64,000 bases of DNA from Bactericera cockerelli (lineage: Eukaryota > Arthropoda > Insecta > Hemiptera > Triozidae). Of the stretch, positions 26,501-51,600 are shown one piece after another. The notes beneath the pieces were generated by a model, which was given only the letters and a program-made list of their open reading frames with translations, had not been told where the DNA came from and made no database searches. Every line of letters begins with the position of its first letter. Within the stretch, counting starts at the first letter, position 1. The stretch is taken from contig CM044961.1 of assembly GCA_024516035.1 (NCBI GenBank), forward strand, positions 16,233,756 to 16,297,755, given 5' to 3'. A program made the translations under genes and the position numbers.

Positions 26501-29097
26501 TTTGAAATTCATGTTGCACTTTTCACTGGCTGAAAGTACATGAAATGTATGGGAACTATGTTTTCCGTAACCTTACACTCTGCCGGGCTGTCTCTTTCTT
26601 TGTATAGGCGTTCTTCACACCTCGGCCGAGGTGTTTGATTAATGCGATACATATTATTTTGCTCTGGACTCTGAATGAGCTGCTTTATATCCTGTAATTT
26701 GAATAAAATAATATTAGCCGTATTTTTCTTTCTAACCAAAGTTAACCAAACTGGAATAAAATGAAATAAACTGGAAGCAAGTCATTTTTCTTTTGGAAGA
26801 GGAAAAATTTCCACTTCCAAAGTTAACCAAAGTGGAAGTAGCAAATTCTTGCTGCTTCCAGTTCTATTATAGGTTAAGTCCATTGTTTATCTTTAAAAGT
26901 ACCGAAACGCATTTTTCTTTCACGAATGTGGTGAAGTTGACCTTTGAATAAAATGGAAATATTGAACCTGGAAAAAATATTTATCCATAAGAAAAATACC
27001 CCTATTCTTTTTCATTTGAAGGATCGCTCACATATTTATCTTAAAGTACCTGTTCGGATTGTACTATAACTTGGTGATTCTCCGCGATGAGGGGTTTGGT
27101 AAAGTTCCACCGGACTATAGCGTAGTCCTTGATGAGATAGTAGAGGAGACCATCTGGCTCATCGCAGAATAGACCCGACGAGATGCCCATCTTGTAGCCA
27201 AAGAAGTGACTTTGCAGCGTCATGTTCTGTTGAATAGAAAACGAACAACATGAAAATTTCTCATTAGATCCAAAATCAAGTGAATGAAAAAGAAAAAGTT
27301 TTGTGAGTTCAAATATCGGAGAGAAAAATAATGTCACAAAAGATCTATTTAAGGTCGCAGTGACAAAGAGCTTTCGTAGCCGACAGCCCTACTTATACCA
27401 ATCGGAGAGAAAAAGAAAAACTTGGTCAATAAACTTTTCTATTTTTTGTTTCTCTAATCTATTTCGAAATATAAGATCAAAAACCCTAATAACATAGTCT
27501 GGTAGACTTTTTTCTTACTGAGATCCTGTCTCGGTTGTCCAGAAGTTTGAATGAATCTTGATTACAATTTCCTACTTCATTTTCCCTTTATATGCAATTA
27601 TGCAATTCTAGCTTAGACCTAATTTTAATCTATCCATCTTACTTGTCACTTCTTTCCTTTTCCCTCATTTGTAGTTTGCCAATTTCTGGATAACCGAGAT
27701 TTCTCCTTCCTCTTAGATATTCATTTCTCCCAGACTTCTCGGCTCTATCTCCTTTACCCCGCCATTATTTCCTGCTTAACCTCTCACCGAGCTTGCATGC
27801 AACTCATCCAAGCTGACGGCAAACAGCATGTCACTATCGTATGACGTCATGTAGAGAAGGCCGTGACACACGGCTAGGCTACGTAGCGGCACCGAGTACT
27901 CGTTGTATCTCGGAATCACTCGTGTGAACTCGAGATCACTCGGGTTCATGACGAGAAGACTCGAATCGCCAGCGTCGCTGATGTAGATGGAATCGCTTTT
28001 CACGTCGAATACGAGAGAGTTCAAATGACGGTTATCGATTGAGTCTAAAACTTTCTGCTTCACCTGAAATAACAATGGAGGTTGTCGTGTTTGTGTTTGT
28101 GGAAAAAGTGATACATGAAAACAACACAAACTTATGATGAAAACAGCATAGGTAGCTGAAATGGCTGGAACAAAAAGGGAAATTCTATTCTGGTGTCAAA
28201 ATAATTTCCAGGCAAAGGAATGAAAGCTTCCTGTAGATCCCTGTTCCTTTGAGCTACTGAAGTTTCCTGTAGATCCCTGTTCCTTTGAGCTACTTAAGTT
28301 GGTTTAGTATATCCATAAATTATGGTCTATACATGTAAATTATGGTCTATACTTGTAAATTATGGTCTATACTTGTAAATTCTGGTCTATACTTGTAAAT
28401 TATGGTCTATATACTTACAAAAGTGCTGAACCAAGTGTCGTATTGGATCACTTTGGCGGGACACCTCTTGCTCCCTGTGTCCAGGACGAACAGGAATTTG
28501 TTCTTGGCATCTGTGGCGAGCGACACGGCGGACTGCAGACAATCGCAATGCCCGGGTAACTGTAACGGGTAGAATAATAATAATAATAATAGGAAGGACT
28601 GCTGAAGGACTTTTAGTTAGTGTTTAAGGGTTGAAGTGGTTAGTGTTTATCTTTAAGGGCCGAATTTTAAAACAGGAACAGATTTAATCTAAGTGTACAC
28701 TATCCCTTAAACCTTAAATCGGGCTATAGTGCGCTGGATTGGTTGAAACTCCCGATTAGAGAAGCCTTGTTAGGCTTCTCACAATTCACTTCGAGTACCC
28801 ACCAGTAACACTAGATTAGACTCCTGTTACCTGTGACTCCAGGTTAGGGAAGGGTTTGATGAGCCTGATGGGAGTGAGGGAGCTCGTCAAATTGGACAAC
28901 TCCGGCCATGGGGCCTCGAACAGAGTGACGGCTTGGCCTCGGTTCAGGCGAGGCGATGCCAAGAATGCGCGGCTCTTATGTATGGCCACATCCTTCAAGA
29001 TAGATTGCTCTGGTAGTTGAAGAGGGGCCAAATTCCACGCGAGGCTGGTGGCCAGTGTTGCCAGCGTGAAGAACGAAGATAGCATGAAACGATTCAT
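23540..29097 (-). CDS. yellow-like: Yellow/MRJP-family secreted protein
   Basis: Five phase-0 exons: 28831-29097, 28419-28559, 27788-28063, 27050-27226 and 23540-23683, giving 334 residues, somewhat below the usual 400 or so. A signal peptide (about residues 1-20) precedes the family-type N-terminus (ILKDVAIHKSRAFLASPR). The core words CLQSAVSLATDAKNKFLFVL and DTGSKRCPAKVI match the family's LWVLDTG/CPAK block; HFFGYKMGISSGLF and SDSIFVLNSIYNKYQKY correspond to later propeller blades. Yellow proteins act in cuticle pigmentation and related secreted roles; the exact paralogue is unclear and the sequence is divergent. Exon 3 is taken to end at TCG|GTGAGA, which keeps phase; the later AGAG|GTTAAG would break it. 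The long last intron (23684-27049) is filled with repeats. Confidence 0.85.
23755..23927 (+). repeat. SINE family B, degenerate
   Basis: ATAAAGGCGGCTCTGTGAAT, then GTGGGTTCGAAACCCAGCCG (B box), then the body shared with 42070 and 46685 (AATAATACGTCTTCGGCTTA). Confidence 0.65.
23928..24469. repeat. Near-perfect palindrome, 246-bp arms, 50-bp loop
   Basis: 23928-24173 pairs with 24224-24469; paired positions sum to 48397 at both ends. Arms carry small mismatches only. It lies in the last yellow intron and has no coding content. Confidence 0.9.
25030..25270. repeat. About 46-bp tandem repeat, six units
   Basis: Each unit has ATACATAGAAGGCAATGCCT or a variant, followed by GGGTTAGG. AGGCAATGCCT is nearly palindromic. 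The 93-residue ORF across it is a repeat artefact. Confidence 0.75.
25430..25580 (-). repeat. SINE family A, degenerate
   Basis: CTCACGAGGTATGAGTGTAC and GGGATCGAACCCAAGTCATC in reverse orientation match the family body and head. Confidence 0.7.
25800..25880 (-). repeat. tRNA-like sequence, probable SINE head
   Basis: The plus strand holds CCGCCAGGATTCGAACCCAT, an inverted B box, then CATGCTACCAATAGACAAAG. No paired acceptor stem is evident. Confidence 0.45.
25881..27049. other. Yellow intron sequence, no exon supported
   Basis: Holds a 76-codon open frame at 26509-26739 with an acceptor-like start, but its product does not resemble yellow proteins, and the flanking exons join correctly without it. 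It also has a poly(A) run near 26340 and an 18-base palindrome ACACCTCGGCCGAGGTGT near 26620. Confidence 0.5.
28300..28418. repeat. 20-bp minisatellite abutting a yellow splice donor
   Basis: Four to five units of AAATTATGGTCTATACTTGT run up to the donor of exon 2 (GTAAGT at 28413-28418). On the gene strand the unit repeats the first intron bases after the donor. Confidence 0.75.
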
Positions 29098-29989
29098 GCC
29101 TATTTATTTGAGTCCCTTGGAGATCTTGTATTTATTTTTCCGTTTTAAAGTACATTGCTAAATATTTTTAGGGGCAAGAACTCTGAATGTTACAGACCTC
29201 TCTTTAAATAAATATCCATTAAAAAAAAAAAATATTTCTTAATACGACTGTATTACAGCACATCTAAGTACGTATTTCTCTACACTATCCACATAACACA
29301 AAAGAAATATCTGGATCCCTTCTTTGAATACATACTGCAGTAAGTAGATTTATCAAATTAATATTAAAAACGTAAACTTCAGTTAAAAAAATAAAAATAA
29401 CTTCACATCAAATATAATTAGGTATATCTTCCTATTAGTAGGTAAAGTCACATTATTACGTAAATGCACCTCCCGAATGTATAGTAAACTTTCAGTTTAA
29501 AGTTATTAGGTATTTATTTCTAGATATTGTCCAAAAAGTTTCACATATTTTTTTGTCTTGATTTATAAAATTTTAACCTTGTATCAAGGAAGATTGATTT
29601 CATATAGATATTTTCAAAAAATCCTACATTTACACGGGTTGGATAGGCTAATTTTCCAACTAGTCACTACAACGAACTATCGTAACTACTATTAGTTTAC
29701 ATTCAACAATAATTGAATAATTCCACACTCACTATTACCTACCTACAGTAGTGTAATCCCCATGCAGCTAGGTATCAGGTAGGAGGCTAGTTGTGCAGAA
29801 TGGAAAGCAAATAATTGTAAAACAAAAAAGCAGGGCCTGTACTAAGTGGTATTCAGGAGGTCATCGGGTTGTAGTATAAGATAGAATAACCTAGATACAG
29901 TGCGCCCGGCGCCCGTCATAGGCCTTAGTAGGCGGCCACAACGAGGAGTACGAGGACCCTGGCTTACACCCTAGACCTAGACCCCAGAC
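29098..29989. other. Upstream of yellow, no gene recognised
   Basis: AT-rich. It should contain the yellow promoter, but I cannot single out a convincing core element. Confidence 0.4.
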
Positions 29990-30699: not shown

Positions 30700-30975
30700 C
30701 TATTTAGGCTTAACCGGTTCCGATTGGCAGCCGAGACACCCGCCGAAGCCAAGAGAGTTGCTCTGGACCAGGACTACATCACTGCGGCCCACCACTGGCT
30801 TTGGCGGGCCGTGCTTGCCGACCAGTAAGTCCCGCGTCTCATGATCTTCTGGGGAGGCTTTTGCCACACCGTCCCATTCATTTTTAGAATCAGTCTCGGT
30901 CACATTGTCTTGACAGAACATCATCTGACAGAGCAGGGCCACGCCCAACACAACACTCAGCACTTTGGGCGCCAT
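30700..30975 (-). CDS. Small secreted protein 1 (GFGGCLGC-box family)
   Basis: One exon, 91 residues. The signal peptide (about residues 1-21, MAPKVLSVVLGVALLCQM...) ends at FC|QD. A sequon NVT follows at once. The middle is acidic and hydrophilic (residues 25-60), then VVGRSDVVLVQSNSLGFGG and CLGC, then a short tail ending PVKPK. The two Cys of CLGC are the only ones in the mature chain, so they may form a tight intrachain or an intermolecular disulfide. I know no family with this box and infer secretion only. The core promoter is conserved with copy 2. Its coding part is nearly identical to gene 6, on the other strand 12 kb away. Confidence 0.82.
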   Translation of the reverse strand: MAPKVLSVVLGVALLCQMMFCQDNVTETDSKNEWDGVAKASPEDHETRDLLVGKHGPPKPVVGRSDVVLVQSNSLGFGGCLGCQSEPVKPK

Positions 30976-31049
30976 TGATTATTTAGGGTTTACTAACAGT
31001 AGGTAGGAGCTAACACTGATCAAACTTGAACTATCAACTTGTCGCTTTG

Positions 31050-31153
31050 AACTGACATAAGTTAGATCTGCGCGGGTTTTTTATATGATTTTTAAATTAA
31101 TTTACTTACTCACAGAACCTATTCAAACGTTCGAAATTCTTGGAAACTAAGAT
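31050..31153 (-). promoter_or_regulatory. Promoter of secreted gene 1
   Basis: TATAAAAAA (first T at 31085) lies 32 bases upstream of the A of a TCAGTT initiator (31053), the canonical spacing. A conserved upstream word, AATTCTTGGAAACTAAGAT on the plus strand, is at 31135-31153. The leader shares GTTCAAGTTTGATCAGTG with genes 2 and 4. Confidence 0.75.
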
Positions 31154-31247
31154 GTACATAAAAAATTAGCGTTTTAATAATCACTCGAATTTTTATTATC
31201 GGAAACAGAACAATAATTGACGTATGTATCACCTAATTCATTATTAC

Positions 31248-31310
31248 ACCGACCTCAGTAGCTCGATCGATAATGCGGCGGATTTGTCCGTGGATGGTAA
31301 TTCTACAAAA
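31248..31310 (+). repeat. SINE family C fragment
   Basis: CGACCTCAGTAGCTCGATCG, then ATAATGCGGCGGATTTGTCC, truncated before the B box. Confidence 0.65.
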
Positions 31311-31495
31311 TAAGGCAGGTTTGCCTTATGTTTAAATGGCTGGTGCTCCATTTGCGGTCAATAAATATCATTTTTCTTTTTATAAGAGAAACCTTTGTAA
31401 AAAAAAATGAACTTTCTAGGTATTTCTAATAAAGAAATACAGAGATCAATGAATAAGTAATTTATACAGGGCATGAATTTTGCTTCCATAGAATA

Positions 31496-31729
31496 CTAGC
31501 GGGCTGTCGCCCGCTTTGCGGCCGAGGCATGGCCGTGAAAGCAAAAACTCCTTTTTCGCCAATGGCAGGTGTTGTAGTGGGAATTTTGAAAAATCCCGTC
31601 TTATTGCACATCTAGACTATAAGACAAAGCTACCTACCAAATTTCAGCTTCCTAGGACTTACCAGTTCGGAGAAACAGTGATGATCAGTCAGTCAGTGAC
31701 TTTGACATTTATATGTATATTAAGATAGA
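31496..31729 (-). mobile_element. Helitron-like non-autonomous element
   Basis: Reverse orientation: ends in CTAG at 31496 next to a GC hairpin (GCGGGC/GCCCGC). It is the inverted relative of 36510-36757, sharing GAAATTTGGTAGGTAGCTTT. The 5' boundary is less certain. Confidence 0.5.
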
Positions 31730-31737
31730 CTAGTAAA

Positions 31738-31882
31738 CCGACCTCAGTACCTTGATCGATAAGGCGGCGGACTTGTAAACTGGAGGTCGCTGGTTCAAGT
31801 CCCGATTTCAGAGTAGATTTAGTAAAGCGAGTTTGAGTGGTTGATGTGATATCACAAAAGTGATCAACCCAAATATGATAAC
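31738..31882 (+). repeat. SINE family C
   Basis: Good copy: CGACCTCAGTACCTTGATCG, AAGGCGGCGGACTTGTAAAC and GGTTCAAGTCCC, with a body ending in GTGATCAACCCAAATATGA. Confidence 0.75.
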
Positions 31883-31960
31883 TAGATAGACTAGCGGGTT
31901 ACACCCGCCGTTGGCGCCCCAGTAAAAATATACTAAAATCCTTTCTTAGTTTGCATCTAA

Positions 31961-32546
31961 TGCTGGGTCCACACAGGTGAAACATGCAACATGAATTCAC
32001 TCTGTGTGGACGGCTTCTGAACACGAACATACTTTACTTTATTGTGACGACGGCCTTAACGACCATATGTCTGCTCAATAGCAGCCCTCCAACGAATTCT
32101 ATCTTGTGCTGCAATCTTCCATTCACTAGGTAAAACTCCCATCTCTTGACTATCTTCACTGATATTGTCCTCCCAACGCATTCTTGGTCTGCCTCTTGTT
32201 CTTAATCCACCAGGATTGTGCAGCAGTACTAAATGGGGTATTCTAGAGTCATCCATTCTTGCCAGATGACCTGCCCATTGAAGTTTTCTCAATAATTTTT
32301 GAACACGAACATGAATGTTCAAAAATTATCCATGAGGATGTCGGTTTTCTACCGAACAGCTTTGATCTTTGTTGCGACTATGTTGCACGTGTGTGGACGG
32401 TATAACTGAGTTACTACTGAATTAAAACAGAATGGATCACTGACGAACACGAACTGGAACACGTTGCTGCAACAGTGATCCAATTACCACACACATGATG
32501 CAGCAACGTGTTGTATGTTGCATGTTGCACCTGTGTGGACCCAGCA
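31961..32546. mobile_element. PIF/Harbinger-like MITE that captured a LINE piece
   Basis: TIRs TGCTGGGTCCACACAGGTG and the inverse, with the 3-bp duplication TAA on both sides (31958-31960 and 32547-32549). That target length and base composition fit PIF/Harbinger. Subterminal words (CTGTGTGGACGG, GTGTGTGGACGG) repeat inside. Confidence 0.7.
32056..32322 (-). pseudogene. LINE reverse-transcriptase C-terminal fragment
   Basis: 88 residues with LRKLQWAGHLARMDDSRIP and GRPRMRWEDNI, the recurrent C-terminal segment of many non-LTR retrotransposon polyproteins. It is contained within the Harbinger-like MITE and has no upstream polymerase domain. Confidence 0.7.
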
Positions 32547-33312
32547 TAAGAGCTAAGAGTAACCTACAAGTCAAAATTCTGCTTCCTAGGACATACCAGT
32601 GCTGAGAAATCGAGTTGAATGAGTGAGTGTTATCTTTTGCATTTATATAATTATGTATAGATTATTATTATTGCTACATACATCACTTACAGTTTAAACT
32701 GGACGATTCATAGCCGTAAAAAAAGAGTATGTTGGGAATTGTGAATCATTATACTTTGACACCTTTGTTGATGTCTAATGCCCTAGTAGGTATCGTCCTC
32801 AGATCAGTACCCATCCTTGACAAACTTTCCAACTCTCTGGATAGGTACGACCCTGAGGTAGGATACGTAGTTTCATGGATCAGCACTTCTGACTTGAGAA
32901 TAAATAGAGGCAAATCAGCTTATCAAAAAATGAATTCTATAGAAAAACACATCGCCACCAGAATTTCTGCCTTTCTGTGCAAAACGAATAGAATTTAATT
33001 TTCAAACCAAAATGACGATCTGATGATCATCATCGGTATACATAGAATCTATTATGCTTCACCAACGGAATAATTTGACCGTTCGTGAGTATCTGAGTGC
33101 ATGCCTAAATTTTAACAAGACCTTTGCAAAAAATTGCAGAAAAATGGAGAATTTTTTTTGCGTCTGTAATCCTTAATGTCTCAGAGAAGATAGAACAAAT
33201 GAAGTATTTTTAATTTGATTTATTTATCAATTGAATTTTAATAAATATTTGAATTAGGTTTTCCAAATAGGGATGGATCTAGGAAGGTGAGCGGAGACAG
33301 CTACCCCAGGTG

Positions 33313-33540
33313 TCAGGCAATAGTAATTGCAGGAGGAGGCTTAACCGGTTCCGATTGGCAGCCGAGACACCCGCCGAAGCCAAGAGAGTTGCTCTGAACC
33401 AGGACTACATCACTGCGGCCCACCACTGTCTTCTTGCCGTCAGGACTTGCTGTCTTATTGGTGTTGTTAGCAGGAGCACAGAAAACCATCTGACAGAGCA
33501 GAGCCACGCCCAACACAACACTCAGCACTTTGGTCGCCAT
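33313..33540 (-). CDS. Small secreted protein 2 (GFGGCLGC-box family)
   Basis: One exon, 75 residues. The signal peptide is almost identical to gene 1 (MATKVLSVVLGVALLCQM...). The acidic middle of gene 1 is replaced by a short Asn/Thr/Lys stretch (APANNTNKTAS) with two sequons, then the conserved VVGRSDVVLVQSNSLGFGG-CLGC box and a different tail (SEPVKPPPAITIA). The flanks and promoter match gene 1 closely, so the middle has changed much faster than its surroundings. Function unknown; inferred to be a secreted glycopeptide. Confidence 0.8.
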   Translation of the reverse strand: MATKVLSVVLGVALLCQMVFCAPANNTNKTASPDGKKTVVGRSDVVLVQSNSLGFGGCLGCQSEPVKPPPAITIA

Positions 33541-33614
33541 TGATTATTTATGCTTTACTAACACTAGGTATTAACTAACACTGATCAAACTTGAACAATC
33601 AACTTGTCGCTTTA

Positions 33615-33718
33615 AACTGACATAAGTTAGATCTGCGCGGGTTTTTTATATGTTTTTTTAATTAATTTACTTACTCACAGAACCTATTCAAACGTTCGAA
33701 ATTCTTGGAAACTAAGAT
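33615..33718 (-). promoter_or_regulatory. Promoter of secreted gene 2
   Basis: TATAAAAAA (first T at 33650) lies 32 bases from the initiator A (33618). The same AATTCTTGGAAACTAAGAT word is at 33700-33718. Confidence 0.75.
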
Positions 33719-33793
33719 ACATAAAAAATTATCGTTTTAATAATCACTCGAATTAATCACCTTTGTTTTAATCGTTTTAATCACCTTTGTTTC

Positions 33794-33860
33794 ACCGACC
33801 TCAGTAGCTCGATCGATAAGGCGGCGGATTTGTAACCTGGAGGTCGGTGGATGGTAATTC
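33794..33860 (+). repeat. SINE family C fragment
   Basis: CGACCTCAGTAGCTCGATCG, then ATAAGGCGGCGGATTTGTAA and CCTGGAGGTCGGTGG. Confidence 0.7.
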
Positions 33861-34236
33861 TACCAAATAAGGCAGGTTTACCTTATGTTTACCTGGCTGT
33901 CGATAGGAGTAAATTTGTTATTTAGGATTTTAATCTGGTTGTCTTAATAAATAAATAAATAATAATACCTGAAACTCCTGTTGTCATTTGGGTATTTATA
34001 ATGCCTAATTAAGACAAAGTCCCATTTTTCCAGCAGATAATTTGGTACCTACTATTGTTTTGTGCTCAAAATTTTGAAGAAATGAGGAAAATTCCATGCA
34101 TTTTGGGTGGGATAATGGGATTTGAAACAACGGATCCTTACGCCATCTGGATTACCTTAACCAAAATTGACCAAAAAATATGTATATGTAAAAATAGTTT
34201 ATACCACTTCACCACCTGGTTTTATGCTTGAGTCTC

Positions 34237-34500
34237 GCGGGTCCTCAGATCAGTTCCCGCCCTTGACAAAATTTCTGGATACGACCCTGACGCAAAGCTC
34301 TTGATACGTAGTTATATAGATCAGCAGTTCAGACTTGAAGATAAAAATAGGCAAATCAGCTTAGCAAATTATGAATTCTAAAGAAAAATAGAGTCAGCAG
34401 AATTCTTGCCTGTCTAAGCTAGAAGTATAGCGCTTTATTTTCAGAACTAAATGATCATCATCAGCAGAGGCACCTAGAATTATTTATTATGCTTCTTCAC
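34237..34500. repeat. Segmental duplication flank, older copy 3
   Basis: CCTCAGATCAGTTCCCGCCC, TGGATACGACCCTGACG and AGGCAAATCAGCTTAGCAAA correspond to the 3' flanks of genes 1 and 2. About 1.3 kb of later insertions separate it from gene 3. Confidence 0.65.
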
Positions 34501-34869
34501 CTACGGAAATCACATAATAATATTGTTATTTTACCTATCGAATATAACACGTCTACTAATCATTTACCTACATAGCTTCTCAATTTTGTTCTCATAAAAC
34601 AGTTTTTTTTTTTGAACGTCGCTTTCAACGGCATGGTCATATCCATTCGCAGGAAACTCACAAACCTGCTACCCGAATTAATAAAACTTCATTTTTATTA
34701 CTATTGTGCTGCCTTATTTACCGCCCGCAGTACAAAGATTCTCAGATTGATCCCGGGTTGGGCAGAATTTTTGTTCCCTATTAAGTAAAGAACATGCCCT
34801 CAAGGCTAGGGTTTCCGGTTCAACCCAGGCTGGGTGAGGTTAACGTGGGTAGGTAGTATAACGAATCCC

Positions 34870-35010
34870 AGACTGACCTCAGTAAATTAATCGAAGAGGC
34901 GGCGTGCTTGTAATCTGGCAGTTGGTGGTTCGCGTCCTAAATTAAGCAAATATAATTAATAAAACTAGTTTAAATAATTGTGATATCACGATAGTGATTC
35001 ACACAAATTT
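34870..35010 (+). repeat. SINE family C, degenerate
   Basis: GACCTCAGTAAATTAATCG, GGCGGCGTGCTTGTAATCTG and the tail GTGATTCACACAAATTTGAT. Confidence 0.6.
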
Positions 35011-35880
35011 GATAACGTTCAACATTAGGAGGTACGATTCCCAGCAAGTGGAGGGTAAAACCCCAGTCATAAATGTTATTCAGGACTTCTCAATGAATGT
35101 AGAATAATAACATATACTGTTCACAGTTTAGACTAGGAGGCTAGGGGCCAAATTATGAATCAGGATTAAAGTTAATCTAAGCCTGACACGCTCTCAAGTA
35201 GCAGTTTAGAACCAATCTCAGTGCACTATATCTAATTCTGTGTTCTAATTCGGCCCTATTAGGAGTAACATTGTCACGATGATATGATAATAGAATCCAT
35301 ATTATTATTGTTGTATTGGCGGGCGTCCCTTATTATTATTATACTTGACATCTTGACACCGGGAATCGGACTGTTGGTATTTCCGAACGTCTGGACTCTG
35401 GAGTAGTACTGCCAGAATAACTCTTCAACCAATACAAAAAAAAAACATGAACTAGAGGGAAGCAGAAGAAAGAAAAAATCATCATATTTTAGGTCAGTTT
35501 AAACAGTTTTTTTTTTTTTTTTTTCATTTGAGCCCTGAATGCCCAATGTCTCAAAGAAAATCAGAATAATAATATAGGAGGATTAAATTTATTTATTTAT
35601 TCATACAGTTGAACATGGATATAGATAACTTTTTTTTCATATAGATAACTGAATACAAGACAACGATTGGATATAACAGGTCAACTCTCTATAAGGGAAA
35701 ATAACCTCTTTAAAAGAGAAACTTGGATACCAGAGAAAATAATTCCGATCCATTGGGTTCTCTGGGTTTGATGGCAGAGATTGCCTCAGGCAATAATCAC
35801 GCCCTTTGTCAATATTATTCTTGTCAATAAAGAGTTATTATTATTATTATATTCTCTTGCATTCGGGATCGACAGCAATT
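35010..35880. other. Repeat-rich spacer before secreted gene 3
   Basis: Holds a 5S-SINE tail fragment (about 35035-35080), a poly(T) run near 35510, a dispersed repeat at 35640-35765 (TCTATAAGGGAAAATAACCT, also at 60780) and a retroelement tail at 35765-35850. No gene is seen. Confidence 0.5.
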
Positions 35881-35900
35881 TCCTGGAGTCTAGGCGCGGT

Positions 35901-36119
35901 CTAGCCGCAGCCGAGACAACCACCAAAGCCGAGGGAGTTGCTCTGAACCAGGACTGTGTCGCTGCGGCCCACCATCACTGGCTTTGAGCCATTCCTGCCG
36001 GCCGTCTGGTTTACTGCTGACGACGGGACAGCAGCACCTTCAGTCACATTGTCTTGACAGAAAACCATCTGACAGAGCAGGGCCACGCCCAACACAACAC
36101 CCAGCACTTTGGTCGCCAT
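35901..36119 (-). CDS. Small secreted protein 3 (GFGGCLGC-box family)
   Basis: One exon, 72 residues from the ATG at 36119. An in-frame upstream ATG (36197) lies 5' of the likely initiator (TTCAGTTC, 36175-36180), so I reject it. Signal peptide MATKVLGVVLGVALLCQM..., QDNVTE sequon, a short middle (GAAVPSSAVNQTAGRNGSKP) with two more sequons, then VGRSDTVLVQSNSLGFGG and CLGCG, where the chain stops. It is the shortest member and shows that the box alone can be the C-terminus. The 3' flank shares ATTTCCTGGAGTC with gene 4. Confidence 0.82.
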   Translation of the reverse strand: MATKVLGVVLGVALLCQMVFCQDNVTEGAAVPSSAVNQTAGRNGSKPVMVGRSDTVLVQSNSLGFGGCLGCG

Positions 36120-36174
36120 TATTATTGGATTATTGGAACACTGATGAAACTTGAACGTTCGACTTGTCGCCTTG

Positions 36175-36284
36175 AACTGAAATAAGTTAAATTCCATTTT
36201 CGCTGATTTTTTTATATTTTCACTAGAATTTTCCTGGTTAACCTTTATCAGATTTGACCATTTGTAATTCTTGGAAACTAAGAT
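36175..36284 (-). promoter_or_regulatory. Promoter of secreted gene 3
   Basis: TATAAAAAAA (first T at 36216), initiator TCAGTT (36175-36180; spacing about 38, longer than in genes 1 and 2) and the shared AATTCTTGGAAACTAAGAT at 36266-36284. A further block (TCAGATTTGACCATTTG) is shared with the gene 5 promoter. Confidence 0.6.
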
Positions 36285-36509
36285 AAGTGCTGGAATTTTA
36301 ATTACCTTTCGTCGGACAGAATATTTAATTACTTACCCATTTAATGCAATGACATCATCAGATAGGTTTAGTATAAAGTTTACTTTCGGCGTAAAACCCT
36401 AACTTAATTTTAATACCTAAACATAAACCAAGTGAAACTGCTTTTTGATTAACTTCAAGTCATTATTGTGGCACATGCAATTACGAAACAAATTTTATCT
36501 TACTCATAA

Positions 36510-36757
36510 TCTATACTTATATAAGAGAGTTTCACTTACTGACTGACTGACTGACTCACTCACTGATTCATCACTGTTTCTCCGAACTGGTAAGTCCTAG
36601 GAAGCTGAAATTTGGTAGGTAGCTTTTTCTTATAGTCTAAATGTGCAATAAGACGGGATTTTTCGAAATTCCCACTACAACACCTGCCATTGGCGAAAAA
36701 GGATTTTTTGCTTTCACGGCCATGCCTCGGCCCGCAAAGCGGGCGACAGCCCGCTAG
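36510..36757 (+). mobile_element. Helitron-like non-autonomous element
   Basis: Starts TCTATACTTATATAAG and ends CCCGCTAG, with A immediately 5' and T immediately 3', the Helitron A^T insertion pattern. It contains a (GACT)n run. Confidence 0.55.
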
Positions 36758-37029
36758 TCTTTTATATTTATGACTAGCTGGTTAAACCCGCCGCTTCGCC
36801 AGCCCATCAAACACCCACCCACATATACACACACACCCACACACAGACACACCACACACACCGAAATTCGCTCTCATGCGTTGGAGCTTGGAGTAGGCAC
36901 CTACTCTCTCGCCGTTGTGTTGTGGGCGTGTCATATGAACAGCTTCGGTGACGGCACGCTTTCGCTAATGAATCATTATTGGACCGAGAAATTCCGATAA
37001 CTGGAAAATGGTAGTAGAAAATTTACTTT

Positions 37030-37745
37030 TTATTAATTTTCTAGCTAGTTTGACTCTGGTTTAGGGGGGGTCAACTCTCATGAAAAATTTTCTATCTCTT
37101 ACCGTTTGGGCTGTAGTATTGTAAACAGACTAAGTCAAGGGGTCATAGTCAGAGACAGCCAGACACTCACAGATTTGAGTTTTATATACAGGGTGATCCC
37201 TAAACATGGGGACAACGGCCTACTGATGATTCATTGAACCATTTCCAACAAAAAATATGCCCATACAAAGAGGTCGATCTCCCTTAGTTTCGAAGATAAC
37301 CGCCATTTTGTAGTTTTTTTTTGAAGAAAACAGACTTGCCCTCAGTTCTAGTGCAATAACTTATATTTCACTACATCTTGAAAAGAAATTAATTTTATTT
37401 TTGTAATTTGCACAAAATTTCACACCTAAAATCATCATCGCAACATGCTAGAAATAAACCCTTACCTGTTTCTAAGAGACAAACTGATCCAGAGTTTGGT
37501 GGTTGCAGTTTTTCCGTCACACTTTGTAGTTGATTTTCTAGAAAATTTTCCCGGGTGGAAATCTGGAACTCTTTTGTAAAAACATGTCTGTTTTGTTTCC
37601 TAACATTAGACACCTCGATCATTGAAATCGGACAAGTGAAACCGGAGAAAAGACGCAGGATTGGGTGGAGGGTAACACCCCCGTCGTGATATGACCATGC
37701 TATCGAAAGTAACGTTAAATCAAAAATGAAGATCAAAATGCTGAG
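37030..37745. other. Spacer, no supported gene
   Basis: A 113-codon minus frame (37395-37736) begins with a SINE-tail word (SYHDGGVTLHP, also at 41300-41470) and has no recognisable domain; I do not call it. Confidence 0.45.
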
Positions 37746-37839
37746 TTACGTATATGGATCAGCAGTTCTGAGTTTCTGAATCAAGAATTTATTGATGAGG
37801 CAATCGAGGCACATTAGCTTTGAATATTTCACTGGAAAC

Positions 37840-37985
37840 TCACAAACCAGCTACCCCAATTAACCTCACCGAGCGTGGGTTGAACGGGATCACCCCATGC
37901 AAGTCCTAACCTCACTTGGCGTTGCTCAACATCAGTAACAAAACGATAACTGGTACCATCTTCGTACAGTAGCCAACGTACTATT
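37840..37985 (-). repeat. 5S-derived SINE, degenerate, antisense
   Basis: Body words AACTCACAAACCAGCTACCC and TAACCTCACC, followed by CGTTGCTCAACATCAGTAAC and AACTGGTACC, antisense to the 5S head. Confidence 0.55.
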
Positions 37986-38079
37986 GGCGCTGACTTACAT
38001 ACCCTTTGAAAAATACAATTATAGGTACAGATAAACTTTTCGATTGATTAAAATCCATGGATTTTTTTTATTTGAGGTA

Positions 38080-38334
38080 TCTCTATATATAATTATAAAA
38101 CAGAAAAAAGGACTACCTACCTACCTACCTATGTTTGTTTGTTTGTCCGGAGTTGTTTAGCCAAAACGGTAAGAGATAGCGAAAAATGTCTCAGAATTGA
38201 CCCCCCCAAAACCATTATCGCTTTGTGCAGAAAAATTATAAAAAGTTCAAAAAGGCATTGCTGTCCAGCAGTACGGCCATGCCTTAGTAAATTTGAAATT
38301 TAGTCCCGTTGCAAAGCACGGGCAAACGGCTAGT
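38080..38334 (+). mobile_element. Helitron-like element, copy 1 of an inverted pair
   Basis: Starts TCTCTATATATAATTAT and ends ACGGCTAG. A 3' hairpin (CCCGTTGCAAAGCACGGG) lies about 7 bases before CTAG. Flanked by A and T, as Helitrons are. Contains a (CTAC)n run. Confidence 0.65.
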
Positions 38335-38407
38335 AAACTATAAAACAACAAAATACCTAATACCTATATGTAGGTATGAATGAAACACGAGTCAATTTTA
38401 TTATTTA

Positions 38408-38659
38408 CTAGCCGTTTGCCCGTGCTTTGCAACGGGACTAAATTTCAAATTCTAAGGCATGGCCGTACTGCTGGACAGCAATGCCTTTTAGAACTTTTTA
38501 TAATTTTTCTGGACAAAGCGATAATGGTTTTGGGGGTCAATTCTGAGACATTTTTCGCTATCTCTTACCGTTTTGGCTAAACAACTCCGGACAAACAAAC
38601 ATAGGTAGGTAGGTAGGTAGGTAGGTAGGTAGTCCTTTTTTCTGTTTTATATATAGAGA
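38408..38659 (-). mobile_element. Helitron-like element, copy 2, inverted
   Basis: Reverse complement of 38080-38334 with a longer (GGTA)n microsatellite; the A/T flanks are again correct. The two copies face each other across 73 bp. Confidence 0.65.
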
Positions 38660-38995
38660 TTATAAAAAAAAACATTGAATAGGTACCTACAATGAGTGTA
38701 AAATAAGAAAAAAATCATAATAATTCTAAAACCACCAGTGTTGAACGTGTTGATAAACAACTTTACCTGCAGTGTGGACGTGTTGAAAATTTAGGTGGGA
38801 ATGGTGCAGTGTTTATCAATGTTGTTAAACAACCGGAGTGAGGATGATTTTAAACAAAGGAGTCGGTAATCCGTATTTTTTTTTTAAATAATATAATATT
38901 AAGTGTATATGTATAAATCGGTTCGTGTAAAGATACACTGCCGTGCTTGCTGGAACATGGCCTGGCGTACTAATTTCCTGGAGTCAAGGTGCGTT

Positions 38996-39950
38996 TTATC
39001 TGCAGCCAAGACATCCTCCGAAGCCCATGGAGTTACTCTGAAGCAGGAGTGTGTCGTTGAGACCCGGAACTGATGACTTTCTTGAGCTGTTCCTGCCTTC
39101 TAGCTCACCCCTTTCATGGATATGTTCTGGCTTGTATTCTTCTTCTGACGAGGATGAGCTATCAGAAGACTCAGTGGTCGTTGTTACCTTTTTCCAAGGG
39201 GGATGGTTTGTCGTGTGTGTGGGGTTCTGTGGCTTGAATCGACCACAAATAATGAATTGGAATCTTATACTTAAACTTGAAACTTGAAAGAAAAATACTT
39301 GTATGTTGAAAATGAAAAGAATTGCATTTTTATTGAGAAAACTTTTTGACTTGAGAAAATTGTAGGAAATTTGGAAGCCTATCAACGTTATTTATCAACA
39401 GTGATGTGGAAACATCGAGCTCGTTGATCTCGCGAGTTTTACTTCGGGAAATGTTACTGACCGCGAGGATAGAAATCAGTTTCCGCGAATATTTAAATCA
39501 CCAGAACCAAACAGTGTGTTCTTCCGAAGAGGATGAGCTATCAGAAGACTCGGTGGTGGTGGTTACGTTTTTTCCAAGGGGGATGGTTTGTCGTATGTTC
39601 TTCTGACGAGGATGAGCTATCAGAAGACTCAGTGGTCGTGGTTACGTTTTTCCAAGGGGATGGTTTGTCGTGTGTTCTTCTGACGATGATGAGCTATCAG
39701 AAGACTCGGTGGTGGTGGTTACGTTTTTCCAAGGGGGATGGTTTGTCGTGTGTTCTTCTGACGAGGATGAGCTATCAGAAGACTCGGTGGTAGTGGTCAC
39801 GTTTTTCCAAGGGGGATGGTTTGTCGTGTGTTCTTCTGACGAGGATGAGCTATCAGAAGACTCAGTGGTCGTGGTCACATTCCCATGACAGAACACCATC
39901 TGACAGATCAGGGCTACGCCCAACCCAACACTCAGCACTTTGGTCGCCAT
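38996..39950 (-). CDS. Small secreted protein 4, mucin-like repeats, frame disrupted
   Basis: Signal peptide MATKVLSVGLGVALICQM... and an NVT sequon, followed by five tandem 78-base units (26 codons; TTTTESSDSSSSSEEHTTN...) at about 39510-39880. A 265-bp stretch (39243-39508), either an intron or an insertion, comes next. A sixth partial unit then leads into an acidic segment with NSS and NDT sequons and the family box (LLLQSNSMGFGG, CLGCR) ending at 38996. In unit 3 a missing C in CCCCC gives an early stop; in unit 4 an extra A would restore the frame. The low-complexity array makes assembly error plausible; a real pseudogene cannot be excluded. The Ser/Thr/acidic repeats suggest a heavily O-glycosylated product. 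Confidence 0.65.
39510..39880 (-). repeat. 78-bp coding tandem repeat of secreted gene 4
   Basis: Five units, each containing GAGTCTTCTGATAGCTCATC and ACAAACCATCCCCCTTGG. The plus-strand frames across it are shadows. Confidence 0.85.
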
Positions 39951-40571
39951 TGATTAACAGTTTTCTAACACTGATCAAACTTGAACGATCAGCTCAGTGC
40001 TCTGAAACTGAAATGAAAATAGTTCGATAGTCAAGTACGCCGGAATTTTATTGATTAATATTTTAAAATTTCTTATCCTATAATGAGGAAAGTATTGTAT
40101 TTAAGACTAATATCAGCTGAAAATTCGACGAAAACCTTTTTTTAATGTCTGTAACTGTAACTCTACCCAATCATTATAATTAACTTTATAGAAAAAGTAC
40201 TTTTTTATGTATTCAAAATATTATCTATTAGTTAAATAATGTATTACGCAGTTGTAGGTGCGACGAATTTTAATTTGAATATTATAAAAGTTTCGATTGT
40301 TGTAGGTACTTAGGTTTAATGTTTATTGTACCTACTTTTCCATCAGGAAATCCCCTTCAAATGTTTGATGATTACGAATTAGATATGTATAAAATAGAAT
40401 TTTGTACCTACCGATCTAAAAATTTTGTTGCATTTTTAAAATTCGTATCTACGAGTAGGTATTATTGTTGCATTTATAAAATTGGGATTAACGAGTAGGT
40501 AATATTAATTTATTATTCTCCTTAGAACGAAATTAAAGGTAATTAAAATTCGAGCAATTACGAATAATAAC

Positions 40572-40720
40572 ACTTATCTCAGTTTCCAATAAGGCCAAAT
40601 GGTCAAATCTGATGAAGGTTTGCCAGTAAAATTCTAGTAATAATAATAATAAAATACCGCGAAAATCTAATTTAGCTTGTTTTAGTTCAAAGCGACAAGT
40701 GTTCAGTACTGAAGGTTATT
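40572..40720 (+). promoter_or_regulatory. Upstream region of secreted gene 5
   Basis: Shares ordered blocks with the gene 3 promoter: ATCTCAGTTTCCAAT (40576-40590), AAATGGTCAAATCTGAT, AAATTCTAGT and TTAGTTCAAAGCGACAAG. The region between genes 4 and 5 (39951-40851) is a divergent promoter region. Confidence 0.6.
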
Positions 40721-41218
40721 TTTACAAGGAAAAATCCATACTTTTTTTATACTTTTTAAACCTTGTGAAGTAAAGGTTATTTTTACAAGGAAAATTCAGA
40801 GTCTATGTATAAAGGTTGTGTAACCTTGTGTGCCGTCTGGGGTGTTAATCAATGGCGACCAAAGTGCTGAGTATTGTGTTGGGCGTGGCCCTGATCCGTC
40901 AGATGGTTTTCTGTCTAGACAATGTGACCACGACCAGTACAACAACTGAGTATTCTGATAGCTACTCCTACTCCTCCTCCTCTTCCTCCTCATCGGAAGA
41001 AGAATACTACTTCGATGCAATGGATGGGCTGGATGTCTGGCTTCGGCAGATGTCCGGGCTGCGGCGCTGATGCGCAGCCAAAAAAAAAAAAAAAAAAAAA
41101 AAACGATACCAAAGAAGTTGCCACCTGTACCTACTACCTGCAGCCTAATATCAGCCGCCTCCCATGGGGGCTGCTATAACCAATATCAATGGATATCATA
41201 AGATCCATAACTTGAGAT

Positions 41219-41470
41219 TTAGAGGTTCAAGTTAGCCAGCGTCGATGGCGCGTTGAATGCACCGGTTCTCGTTGGATCACCGAAGTTAAGCAACGTCCAG
41301 CGAGGTGAAGACTTCGTGATGCTGGCATTCCGGGTTCCGGCCCAACCCAGGCTGGGTGAGGTTAATGTGGGTAGCAGGTTTGTGAGTTTCCTGCGAATGG
41401 AGGGTAACACCCCCGTCGTGATATGACCATGCAGTTGAAAGCGATGTTAAAAACCAAGAAAAAAAATAAG
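41219..41470 (+). repeat. 5S-rRNA-derived SINE inserted in gene 5
   Basis: 41237-41325 matches the 5S rRNA pattern: GCGTTGAATGCACCGGTTCT, then GATCACCGAAGTTAAGCAAC. The SINE body (CCAGGCTGGGTGAGGTTAAT, GGAGGGTAACACCCCCGTCG) follows. Other copies or pieces are at 18690, 34790, 35035, 37840, 42395, 47405 and 56090. Confidence 0.8.
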
Positions 41471-41509
41471 GCAATTTTCTGATTATGTTTAATATGTATA
41501 GTGGAAAGA

Positions 41510-41706
41510 AACCACCAGGTGAGGTTAATGCTCAAAGCATTTTCTACCACCTAACCCTCAGAGTCTTATTATTATGTGGTGACAAACTCAAATTAATGAG
41601 GAAAAATTCGTGCAGTGGGTGGGATTCGAACCAACGGATCCCTACGCTACCTGGATTACCAGACTAGCGCGTTAACCACTTGACTACCAGTGCACCGCTA
41701 TAGACG
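41510..41706 (-). repeat. SINE family D (tRNA-derived)
   Basis: Reverse orientation: head complementary to ACTGGTAGTCAAGTGGTTAA, B box inverse GGGATTCGAACCAACGG, and body TAACCCTCAGAGTCTTATTA. It lies directly behind the 5S SINE and is part of the same insertion. Confidence 0.75.
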
Positions 41707-42069
41707 TGTGACTACCAGCGCTATAGACGATATTAATGCCTTCATTGAAATAAATGATGCTCAATACGTAGATATTTAAAGCTTCCAAGATAACGTCAGA
41801 ATCATGTTCTTCTAGAATAGATATAATATGTACCTATGATATAATATGTGCAGCTGTATAACATGTACCTATGTCCAAATATTGTCAATAAAAAGGCAAC
41901 TTGATGCGATTAAAATTAAAAAAAAAAAAAAAAAAAAATGGATACTATTTTTTTATTTTTTCTAATAATGGGCTAGAAAATAATATTTTTACTATCAATC
42001 GCATGTTATAAATACTCAATCTTGAATTTCTAGCTGCGGCTGAGTAACTTTAGAATTACTTAACCCTAG

Positions 42070-42175
42070 TCTGTCCCGGTAGCTCAGTGGTAAAGGCGGC
42101 TCCTGCTAGTTCAGGCTGTTCCCAGCTACTAAAACTTGTTTTTTTGTAGTTTCCCTTTTGGGACAGAATATAATA
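42070..42175 (+). repeat. SINE family B fragment
   Basis: TGTCCCGGTAGCTCAGTGGT, then AAAGGCGGCTCCTG; truncated before a B box. Confidence 0.6.
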
Positions 42176-42214
42176 TTTTAGAAAGCTAGAAAAACCTAGA
42201 CGTAGATTGATTTC

Positions 42215-42395
42215 GATGTTAGTCAAGAGGTTAAAACTATGGTCTGGTAATCCAAGTAGCGTAGATATCCGTTGGTTCGAATCCCATCCAGTGCATGATT
42301 TTTTCCTCATTAATTTGATTTTGTGACCACATAATAATAAGACCCAGAGGGTTAGGTGGTAGAAAATGCTTTGAGCATTAACGTCGCCTCTTCAT
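42215..42395 (+). repeat. SINE family D
   Basis: GGTCTGGTAATCCAAGTAGC, GTTGGTTCGAATCCCATCC (B box) and the body with GACCCAGAGGGTTAGGTGGT. Confidence 0.7.
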
Positions 42396-42485
42396 CTCGA
42401 TGGACGTTGCTTAACTTCGGTAATCCTACGAGAACCGGTACATTCAACGCACTATCGACGCTGGCGAAGCATTACCTTAATCACG
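42395..42485 (-). repeat. 5S-derived SINE head, antisense
   Basis: GGACGTTGCTTAACTTCGGT, then ACGAGAACCGGTACATTCAA and CGCACTATCGACGC is the reverse complement of the 41237-41325 head. It again adjoins a family D SINE, in the mirror arrangement of 41219-41706. Confidence 0.7.
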
Positions 42486-42673
42486 TACAAACCGGTTAAT
42501 GGTACCCATTACTCTGTTTTAAAAAAAGTTATTCAAATTCGAGCGAATTCAATCTAACTTCTAAGTACCTACCTATAATGTATATTTTATGTTTCAGGGA
42601 ATTTTCAGCAGTTAAAAGTCAAACCTGAAAAACGTGTGTCCATAAAATTTGCGTACTGTCAGATTAGGTAACT

Positions 42674-42737
42674 TATAAAACACACGCGCCAATCGAGAGT
42701 TGCTTCTTTAGATTCGAAGCACTGAAACAAACATTCC
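42674..42737 (+). promoter_or_regulatory. TATA box and short leader of secreted gene 6
   Basis: TATAAAA at 42674-42680 would place transcription start near 42705 and leave a leader of about 33 bases. The surrounding sequence does not match the promoters of genes 1-3 even though the coding sequence of gene 1 does. Confidence 0.6.
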
Positions 42738-43193
42738 ATGGATACCGAACTACTGAGTGTTGTGTTGGGCGTGGCCCTGCTCTGTCAGATGGTGTTCTGT
42801 CAAGACAATGTGACCGAGACTGATTCTAAAAATGAATGGGACGGTGTGGCAAAAGCCTCCCCAGAAGATCATGAGACGCGGGACTTACTGGTCGGCAAGC
42901 ACGGACCGCCAAAGACAGTGGTGGGCCGCAGTGATGTAGTCCTGGTCCAGAGCAACTCTCTTGGCTTCGGCGGGTGTCTCGGCTGCCGTTCTGGTGCCGG
43001 CGACGGCGGCGCTGCAAGTGGCGGCGCTGCAAGTGGTGGCGGTGCAGCGGCGGGGTCACCACCGTCCCCAAGCAACGCTGAGCCACCACAGCCCCTCCTA
43101 CCTGCAGCCAATGAGCCGCCTCCTATGGGGGCCGCTATAGACGAGATCAACGCCTTCGAGGAAACGAATGATGCCGAATACGTGGAAATTTAA
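42738..43193 (+). CDS. Small secreted protein 6, full-length family member
   Basis: One exon, 151 residues, the longest undisrupted member. The signal peptide starts MDTELLSVVLGVALLCQM, then the QDNVTE sequon and an acidic middle identical in nearly all positions to gene 1 (residues 22-62), then the box VVGRSDVVLVQSNSLGFGG and CLGC. Unlike genes 1-4 it continues with a Gly/Ala-rich linker (about residues 82-103), a Pro-rich stretch (PPSPSNAEPPQPLLP) and an acidic tail ending NDAEYVEI. Gene 5 preserves remnants of the same tail, so this may be the ancestral layout. The tail portion is strikingly GC-rich. Secreted by prediction; function unknown. Confidence 0.82.
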   Translation: MDTELLSVVLGVALLCQMVFCQDNVTETDSKNEWDGVAKASPEDHETRDLLVGKHGPPKTVVGRSDVVLVQSNSLGFGGCLGCRSGAGDGGAASGGAASGGGAAAGSPPSPSNAEPPQPLLPAANEPPPMGAAIDEINAFEETNDAEYVEI

Positions 43194-48600: not shown

Positions 48601-51600
48601 CGGTGGTACACAATGTCGGAGAGCCGTATTATCGCCGGTCTAACAAGAGAATTCACGAAAAACCATGCCGGTCGTCTAAGTGTTAAGATTGTGGAGTTAA
48701 GAATTCTCATCACTTCCTCCATCCTACCCTGTCTGCTGAGAATCATACCCAGGTCACTGTCCGTACAAGCCTTGTCCGCTAGAAACCCTTTTAATTTATA
48801 ATGCACCTTTACTCACCGTGTCGACTCTTAGGGACGAATTATGAAACAGGATTAGATTGATGTAAGTGGACACTATTACTGAACTGAGGCTAAAGTGCGC
48901 TGAGATTGGTTATAATAGCCACTAGATGTTGTGTTAAGGGATAGTGTCTACTTCGATTAATCTAAAGCTGTTTCATAATACGGCACTTTATGGGGGGTTA
49001 CATAATGGCCAGTGCGCGCAATTTTGGTTTCATCATATTCTAAATAGCCACATATTCTACATCATCAGATCTCAATAGCCACATATTCCACATCATCAGA
49101 TCTCAGCATGTTATCGGAAGAATACGGGACGAACTCATTGTTACAATTGGAACAAACAGTGCCTGAATTTTCCGCCGCGCTTCTGCCTTTACTCCTTTCG
49201 ACCTCCTCAGCCAGCTGATCCACCGCTGTCTGGTCCACCCCTGTGAGCTTGACCCTGCTGTCGAGTGCTGAGGAGCCTGACAGGCGCCCCTCTGCGTCCT
49301 GATGGATGTGGACGGAGCTGTTGACCAGGACTTGCGCGATGGGCGGGGCCTGGGTGACCTCGTACTTGACAGGGACGTAGATCACTTTCGGCTCGTCGGC
49401 GTCCAGTGACGGCAACCCTTCCACCGAGTAGGACTCATACTCCACCTCTAGGGCGCGCTCATCAATTTCAACTGTAGAATCATTCGGACTCACTGGATGT
49501 GTGCCGCGTTCATCCGTTTCAAGTGTAGAATCATTCGGACTCACTGTGCCATCGCGAGCTTCGACGGAGGAACTGGTCAAGTGAGGTGCAGGTTGCGTCA
49601 ACGAACGAAGAAGATATACAATAGGTGGATCCGATTTTGCTTCGTTGGGTTTGTTGAGGACGACGTCGGGTTTCACTTGGGGGGTGTCCCGGATGGACTT
49701 CAGAGGAAGTGCTACTGTCATGTGCGAAATGAATAACATGCAGGTATAGCTCACGTACATTTTGGAACACGCGAGCTTTTATCGCTTATGAGTCGATGTT
49801 CACTGCACTGTTTCAGGATAGATTTGGATCGGATCAAAATTTAAACTCCAATGACGTCAATCGGACGTTTAGTCTACCTGATAGCACTTTACGAGCAAAA
49901 TATCAGCAAATAAAACACAAGAGTTGATTGTTTTAACAACATGTTAGGTTTTAACTCAGGAGCAAAAGTTTTTATTGTTCTTCTAAGAACATTGGAAACG
50001 CATAAAACGTATGAGAACGGAGATGTCAGGTTGAAGTTGACTATGTTTGAAAACAAACGCATGAAACAAAATTATAGTTCTGTGGTGACATTAGTACGGC
50101 ATGTGATCGTCTATTTCTAGGTTTACGCATAAAGCACATCTCAGATTATGTTTACCCTTAGTACGTGATGAATCGTGTGGATCCAAGGCTTTAATTTGAA
50201 CCCTAAAAAATAACTCTAACCAGCTGCACCAGTAAGGTTTACCTTGGTCCCTTTGTTTTTACCCAGGAATTTCTTAGTGATTTATAGTATGTGAATGTGG
50301 TTTATTTAAAATTATTCATAAACAATATCGTTCAAACTTTATTTACAATTTATATATAGGTACAATGAATAAATGTATAATAATAGTACACAAAGCCTTA
50401 TCAGGGGTATTGATAATACCCTTGGCATTTTCTTCTAAAGACTTTTCTTTTTATGATTTATAATATGTATTGTGTAATCGTTTAGATTTTTTAAAGATAT
50501 ACATTTATGCTTTTGTGTCATGATTTTTTTTGTGTAAAAAAAATACATAAAAATGTTCTCAAGAAACATTACAGGTACTACTCACCACTGGTGGTGATCC
50601 TCATCTCATCAGAACTTGGCGTTTCATTTGATAACTCGCTCGGTAGAATCAGCTTGTTGGCCCAGTGATCAAAGCCAGTTGTAGAACTAGTAGACCCTGT
50701 ATCAGCAATAGAGATTTCATTAATGAATTCATGGTACAATTAACATATTTAATGGTACAATTAAGATAAAAGGATCTATATACAATTATACACACACGCC
50801 TGAGATTAAAGGTCTCTGATTAGTCATCAAGTCAGTCCACTTGCTTGCTAAGACTAGGAAGTCTCAGTACAGCAGTTCTGCAATGTTTCGATTTTTTAGT
50901 ATTTGAGACGAATCGTGTTATGAGACGAATCGTGTTTTGTTTTTCTTGAGACGAATCGTGTTGTGAAAAAGGTCACCTCAGGTAGTTTGAGACGAATCGT
51001 GAAACCCCCATCTGATTAGTCATCAAGTCAGTTCACTTGCTAGCTAAGACTAGGAAGTCCCAGTACAACAGTTCTGCAATGTATATCTGATTAGTCATCA
51101 AGTCAGTCTACTTGCTTGCTAAGACTAGGAAGTCCCAGTACAACAGTTCTGCAATGTACATCTGATTAGTCATCAAGTCAGTTCACTTGCTAGCTAAGAC
51201 TAGGAAGTCCCAGTACAACAGTTCTGCAATGTATATCTGATTAGTCATCAAGTCAGTCCACTTGCTAGCTAAGACTAGGAAGTCCCAGTACAACAGTTCT
51301 GCAATGTACATCTGATTAGTCATCAAGTCAGTTCACTTGCTAGCTAAGACTAGGAAGTCCCAGTACAACAGTTCTGCAATGTATATCTGATTAGTCATCA
51401 AGTCAGTCCACTTGCTAGCTAAGACTAGGAAGTCCCAGTACAACAGTTCTGCAATGTATATCTGATTAGTCATCAAGTCACTCCACTTGCTAGCTAAGAC
51501 TCGGAAGTCCCATTACAACAGTTCTGCAATGTATATCTGATTAGTCATCAAGTCAGTCTACTTGCTTGCTAAGACTAGGAAGTCCCAGTACAACAGTTCT

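Follow-up and report, generated by a model that had tools for sequence, protein, structure and literature searches.

The genome of the hemipteran Bactericera cockerelli (Triozidae) holds, at positions 30700-43193 of a stretch of 64,000 nucleotides (the window; contig C7 of the assembly), six copies of one small secreted-protein gene. These copies raise the question how a group of proteins with divergent middles came to share not only a 21-residue signal peptide but also a C-terminal box, QSNSLGFGGCLGC. Comparison of the cluster with its relatives elsewhere in the genome suggests that, in this cluster, loss of a stop codon probably brought a conserved 3' segment into the protein as its new C-terminus; the polarity of the codon change, from TAG to CAG, is only moderately supported. 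Gall midges and aphids are known to have hypervariable secreted families whose ends are conserved, but the origin of these coding ends is seldom visible. At this locus, one genome offers related DNA in coding and in untranslated form, so that the two can be compared and the difference in constraint measured, which makes the birth of a C-terminus both datable and testable.

Layout and state of the six copies

An earlier note on the window, made from its letters alone, had described six genes, and all six were found in place. Copies 1, 2 and 3 (minus strand; 30703-30975, 33316-33540 and 35904-36119) and copy 6 (plus strand; 42738-43193) are intact genes, each with one open frame that runs from the signal peptide to QSNSLGFGGCLGC. 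Copies 4 and 5 are decayed and frame-broken.

30700..30975, minus: copy 1 (g1), intact 91-residue precursor, stop included; one open frame links the signal and the box
30727..30765, minus: box of g1, QSNSLGFGGCLGC
33313..33540, minus: copy 2 (g2), intact 75-residue precursor; box at 33358-33396
35901..36119, minus: copy 3 (g3), intact 72-residue precursor that ends one residue past the box; box at 35907-35945
38996..39950, minus: copy 4 (g4), with a broken frame; the signal and 78-nt repeats occupy 39514-39875, and the box, at 39002-39040, lies in a different frame
40852..41070, plus: copy 5 (g5), a decayed copy whose degenerate box, at about 41021-41062, is out of frame
41719..41779, plus: remnant of a g6-like C-terminal tail, 3' of g5, that matches the end of copy 6
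42738..43193, plus: copy 6 (g6), intact 151-residue precursor with a long Gly/Ala/Pro and acidic tail; box at 42948-42986

The signal sequences are near-identical, as the earlier note had it, with 54 to 61 of 63 nucleotides the same between pairs of copies. The box, which that note wrote as QSNSxGFGGCLGC, is in frame with the signal in the four intact copies; in g4 it lies in a frame other than that of the signal, a break that had gone unnoticed. In the signal frame of g4, a stop falls inside the 78-nt repeats (4.6 units), and the repeat region carries an insert of about 280 bp. The frame shift already reported for g5 is real: after its signal, this copy has a stretch of Ser and Tyr, a box that is both degenerate (GFGRCPGC) and out of frame, an A run and an interrupted tail.

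Box-like DNA behind the stop codons of relatives

When the 21-residue signal was used as query against the organism's own genome (565 Mb), 22 places were found: six in the window, six on C8, four on C13, two each on C2 and C4, and one each on C11 and C915. A C8 member used as query added four further places on C8, which brought the family to at least 26 places on seven contigs, a lower bound. Judged by these searches, the box does not define the family: signal and promoter occur genome-wide, and with g6 and g3 as queries against this genome an in-frame box was found nowhere outside the cluster. The cluster would be one local branch of a cassette family of small secreted precursors that extends over the genome. 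A gene of this family appears to consist of a conserved 5' cassette and a locus-specific mature region, to which many members add a 3' segment that is also conserved.

Fourteen dispersed genes were read past their stop codon. In six of them (L018, L025, L027, L034, L040a and L040b), TAG or TAA stands at the position of the cluster's CAG codon and box-like codons follow in frame; in L018, only the first three codons behind the stop resemble the box. L032 has TAG at that codon and little similarity after it. Three more genes carry box DNA in a frame other than that of their open reading frame, namely L024 on C4, which has CAG, and L026 and L038, which have TAG at that codon. No recognisable box was seen behind the stop of the remaining four (L019, L031, L033 and L035). 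In several genes, the similarity behind the box extends into CTCCAGGAAA and AATAAA-like stretches.

Protein-level constraint on this DNA differs between the cluster and the genes with a stop before it. Over 12 codons of the box frame, the pooled ratio of the proportions of non-synonymous (pN) and synonymous (pS) differences was 0.06 among g1, g3 and g4 versus 0.84 behind the stop of L025, L027, L040a and L040b; by site, these codons held 8 synonymous and 3 non-synonymous changes in the cluster versus 6 and 14 behind the stop (P = 0.03). This contrast omits g2 and g6 (near-copies of g1), L024, and genes that are gapped or little similar in this region. Between g1 and g3 alone, the 12 codons differ by 5 synonymous and no non-synonymous changes, and the 22 codons that end with the box by 8 and 2, respectively (synonymous and non-synonymous divergence, dS and dN, of 0.72 and 0.04; Fisher P = 1.4e-4). 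Pooled over 10 pairs, these 22 codons showed a pS of 0.344 and a pN of 0.086, as compared with 0.108 and 0.080 in the signal (15 pairs of copies). Because of this difference, the signals within the cluster look recently shared, and the box looks older and held as protein. In a tree of the 5' cassette, from which the box was excluded, the CAG genes and g5 fell on one branch with a support of 83/86 (19 rows); when g4, g6 and L025 were removed, support was 69/85 (16 rows).

These results lend moderate support to an ancestral gene that ended at a TAG immediately 5' of the box DNA. On the branch of the cluster and one C4 locus, TAG would have changed to CAG, after which translation would have continued through the 3' segment, giving the protein a new C-terminus with a CxxC pair that was then kept by purifying selection. 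The reverse course seems unlikely. In it, the box would have been coding from the start, a single nonsense change from CAG to TAG would have removed it from the proteins of the other branch, and the DNA behind their stops would be coding sequence in decay. This course agrees with a box frame that is open over 12 codons behind the stop in L025, L027, L040a and L040b and with the in-frame terminal stop that L040a retains where the C4 box ends. However, the stop-bearing genes lie on C2, C8 and C13 and account for most of the sequence diversity, the CAG genes form one branch, and the segment runs on into conserved CTCCAGGAAA, which none of the genes aligned there includes in its reading frame. Box-like codons directly in frame after the stop, as in the six genes, would also be expected if readthrough of TAG led to translation of the box in all members. 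This is most improbable, since the pN/pS behind the stop is close to that of sequence under no protein constraint and one of the six stops is TAA.

Several observations weigh against a stop loss as the origin of the box. In BLAST comparisons of the 66-nt box region with the family loci, E < 1e-3 was reached by no more than three dispersed members, L024, L025 and L027, and thus by only two (L025 and L027) of the six genes with an in-frame stop. Matches were weak for L040b (0.007), L026 (0.024), L018 (0.08), L040a (0.29) and L034 (1.0), and the likeness of these five to the box rests on position and reading frame. The contrast in constraint involves 12 codons in three versus four genes and includes the now-broken g4, and the polarity depends on an unrooted tree of moderate support (69-86). 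In L024, CAG is present but the box is not in the reading frame, both g4 and g5 are broken, and some of the 26 places are perhaps assembly duplicates.

A second possible route to a new end was seen at C8:7530512, where a frame change before the stop causes the 3' segment to be read in a different frame. The resulting protein has a new end of 33 residues and is 24 residues longer than its sister; an assembly indel could be an alternative cause. Tentatively, the 3' segment may be regarded as a standing source of new C-termini, used by stop loss in this cluster, where the box would then have been kept by purifying selection, and by frame change at C8:7530512, with cassette recombination varying the middle and changes of frame or stop trying new ends.

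Some further features of the dispersed loci were recorded. A four-gene family cluster at C8:254546-263445 recurs with similar spacing at C8:7527608-7536542, either through segmental duplication or as a duplicate made by the assembly. The members at C2:46738206 (L033) and C8:7536542 (L061) have frame changes within their coding regions, so that several family copies are broken. Within about 1727-2650 of L018 (C8:263445), a stretch that covers the stop codon and the first part of the 3' segment is repeated further downstream, at an initial spacing of 67 nt. RNA structure was considered as a basis for the 3' conservation and rejected, as the RNAalifold consensus of eight sequences reached only -0.5 kcal/mol, with no comparison of single-sequence folds to shuffles.

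The 5' cassette and the mature regions

The conserved upstream part of the genes and the tract common to copies 1 and 6 have the following positions in the window.

30976..31160, minus: 5' cassette of g1, with the TTCCAAGAA element at 31137-31145, TATAAA 110 nt and TCAGT 80 nt upstream of the ATG
33541..33720, minus: 5' cassette of g2, element at 33702
36120..36290, minus: 5' cassette of g3, element at 36268
30726..30960, minus (g1), and 42753..42987, plus (g6): conversion-like tract common to g1 and g6, +16 to +250

At most of the loci read, the 5' cassette comprises TTAGTTTCCAAGAATT or a near form, a TATA box and a TCAGT start, and at all of them it includes the signal peptide. TTCNNNGAA was found 163-188 nt upstream of the ATG in 11 of 15 dispersed loci, the other four of which lack the element, and 145-182 nt upstream in five of the six window copies. 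It is also present 23 times in the window, which counts against a reading of this core as specific when taken alone. The exact 16-mer TTAGTTTCCAAGAATT had 11 matches in the 565 Mb, as compared with none for a reversed control. By position, ten of these lie upstream of a family gene; downstream of the eleventh, on C3, there is no such gene for at least 900 nt. This promoter 16-mer provides a simple handle to find and follow the gene set. The core of the upstream element would fit the STAT consensus. Upstream sites resembling kB were confined to g4 and g6, and at 0.43 per 450 bp a looser kB pattern is frequent in the window, so that these sites were set aside.

The segment between signal and box had been said to vary completely, which does not apply to copies 1 and 6. 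These lie on opposite strands, 11.7 kb apart, and show 3 mismatches in 235 sites from +16 to +250. Outside this tract, 42 of 60 nucleotides are mismatched before the ATG and 39 of 50 after +250, and 6 of the first 15 coding nucleotides differ. The tract has its edges at codon 6 and at the last codon of the box, as would fit a recent conversion-like exchange between g1 and g6. In g1 and g2, most of the flanks are 79-98% identical and the middles are nonetheless different.

Conserved ends on either side of a divergent middle were confirmed for most copies, and the comparison of substitution rates that the earlier note had called for supported a box constrained as protein. It did not bear out adaptive point substitution in the middle: in the mature part of five close pairs, pN was not above pS and there was no excess of amino-acid changes, so that an arms race is not demonstrated. 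The changes observed in mature parts were repeats, indels, frame changes and a conversion-like exchange, and a divergence of the middles by adaptive point substitution is not shown by these comparisons. The view first taken of the locus, that of a stand-alone family defined by its box, with a middle diversified by positive selection from an external partner, is in keeping with the conserved ends and divergent middles of copies 1, 2 and 3. It is nevertheless very unlikely in view of a signal and promoter that occur genome-wide without an in-frame box, of the common middle of g1 and g6, and of a pN that does not exceed pS.

Retention of N-glycosylation sequons, which had been claimed for the cluster, was seen in that all six copies have one within the first few residues after the signal; relative to shuffles of the middle, enrichment was significant only in copy 3 (n = 3, P = 0.003; P = 0.22, 0.08 and 0.27 for copies 1, 2 and 6 singly). 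Across the family, with long repeat proteins excluded, 29 sequons were counted in 10 non-redundant proteins (from 19), versus 7.4 expected and a maximum of 15 in 2000 shuffles. The mature parts of members fall into unlike, sequon-rich classes, some of which are multi-copy precursors. On C2 and C4, units such as DVLAANDDTNATTIV are repeated in tandem with, for the most part, KR between them, in the manner of multi-copy peptide precursors; on C13, similar units come after a single R. An R followed by [DSE][VIT], directly or one residue on, occurred in 9 of 11 proteins versus 2.1 expected, for a motif picked post hoc.

From these features we infer precursors that are N-glycosylated after removal of the signal and cut at a putative basic site before (S)DV, which would release small extracellular peptides, such as SDVVLVQSNSLGFGGCLGC with one CxxC disulphide. 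Through the common upstream element, the genes may be co-regulated and yield an extracellular set of effector peptides. Two results count against this account of the family: a stricter basic-site motif with a following sequon was present in 6 of 11 proteins versus 0.28 expected, but in none of the three C7 copies tested (g1-g3), and an AlphaFold model of g1 had no confident fold beyond the signal helix (mean predicted local distance difference test score of 46, four-sequence alignment).

As judged from these sequences, a role of the effector peptides in defence would be a first guess and a rather unlikely one, and secretion by a gland is at least as likely. Arrays of structural or glandular secretions (silk, saliva, seminal fluid or venom) rather than defence peptides are a plausible, if tentative, interpretation of the TATA promoter, the small secreted glycoproteins and the tandem repeats, and a similar layout is described for salivary proteins of the Hessian fly (PMC2955719).

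In line with the earlier note, no described family with this box was found. Pfam searches with the six copies (copy 4 as two pieces) gave nothing above the curated cut-off, with seven matches below it for the repeat piece of copy 4, and a PDB search stayed at chance level (best E 1.3). Neither the cluster alignment nor a ten-member family alignment had a match at E <= 1 among 5.8 billion proteins, a weak absence in a collection whose arthropod content was unchecked. Viral contigs gave 174 pattern matches, none of which was confirmed as a relative. Searches of open-licence PMC text gave no paper for the box or for five other family peptides, and among the matches listed in open-licence literature on hypervariable secreted families of Lepidoptera nothing was recognised as this family.

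Elsewhere in the window, exons of a possible yellow/major-royal-jelly gene lie beside the cluster at 27041-29103 on the minus strand (Pfam major royal jelly protein, MRJP, E 0.026 in one of three frames, below the curated cut-off). A single open frame of 231 residues at 49065-49761, minus strand, encodes a secreted-looking protein with a CSNC motif and a DDVEYVAIEI end; it had no Pfam match and, when 49068-49760 was searched against the same protein collection, no homologue at E <= 1. A kinship of this end with the tail of g6 (NDAEYVEI) was considered and had no BLASTP support. Within 51009-55457, an open frame of 739 residues with a reverse transcriptase domain lies between two stretches of a 75-bp tandem array, 51009-51920 and 54236-55457.

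Comparison with known systems

In layout, and not by sequence comparison, the cluster resembles the SSSGP-1 group of small secreted salivary gland proteins of the Hessian fly (PMC2955719). That group comprises seven genes in 15 kb, one of them inverted and encoding a protein identical to that of another member, and combines a conserved promoter, untranslated regions (UTRs) and signal peptide with a divergent mature region, for which short conversion tracts were proposed. A conserved promoter, 5' UTR and signal with a divergent mature region were also found here, the upstream element being missing in 4 of 15 dispersed loci. As to the conserved 3' UTR of SSSGP genes, the picture here is mixed: the 3' segment is conserved in several members, and 4 of 14 dispersed genes had no recognisable box. 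Whereas a dN/dS above one was reported for close SSSGP pairs, pN was not above pS in the five close pairs analysed here. In addition, most SSSGP groups have an intron and their members are clustered, whereas the present genes read as single open frames and are spread over several contigs. The 3' UTR of SSSGP genes is described as untranslated, in contrast to the 3' segment here, which would be translated in one branch.

The KQY/KHI effectors of the pea aphid (PMC7495047) likewise join a common secretory-signal cassette to unrelated coding regions at mostly scattered loci, but they are built from dozens of miniature exons instead of single open frames. Drosophila Bomanins (PMC4411088) are also clustered small secreted peptides with a short conserved CXXC motif and variable tails or linkers. 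The Bom motif has 16 residues and is described as Drosophila-specific in that source; the box resembles it in CXXC spacing only.

Stop loss is a known source of C-termini (PMC4494051), in which non-coding sequence is recruited as C-terminus via a lost stop codon. The cases in that source are polymorphic and come from yeast and Drosophila. In the present cluster, the putative extension is common to paralogues and looks constrained as protein, and apparently homologous sequence stands untranslated behind an in-frame stop in six relatives.

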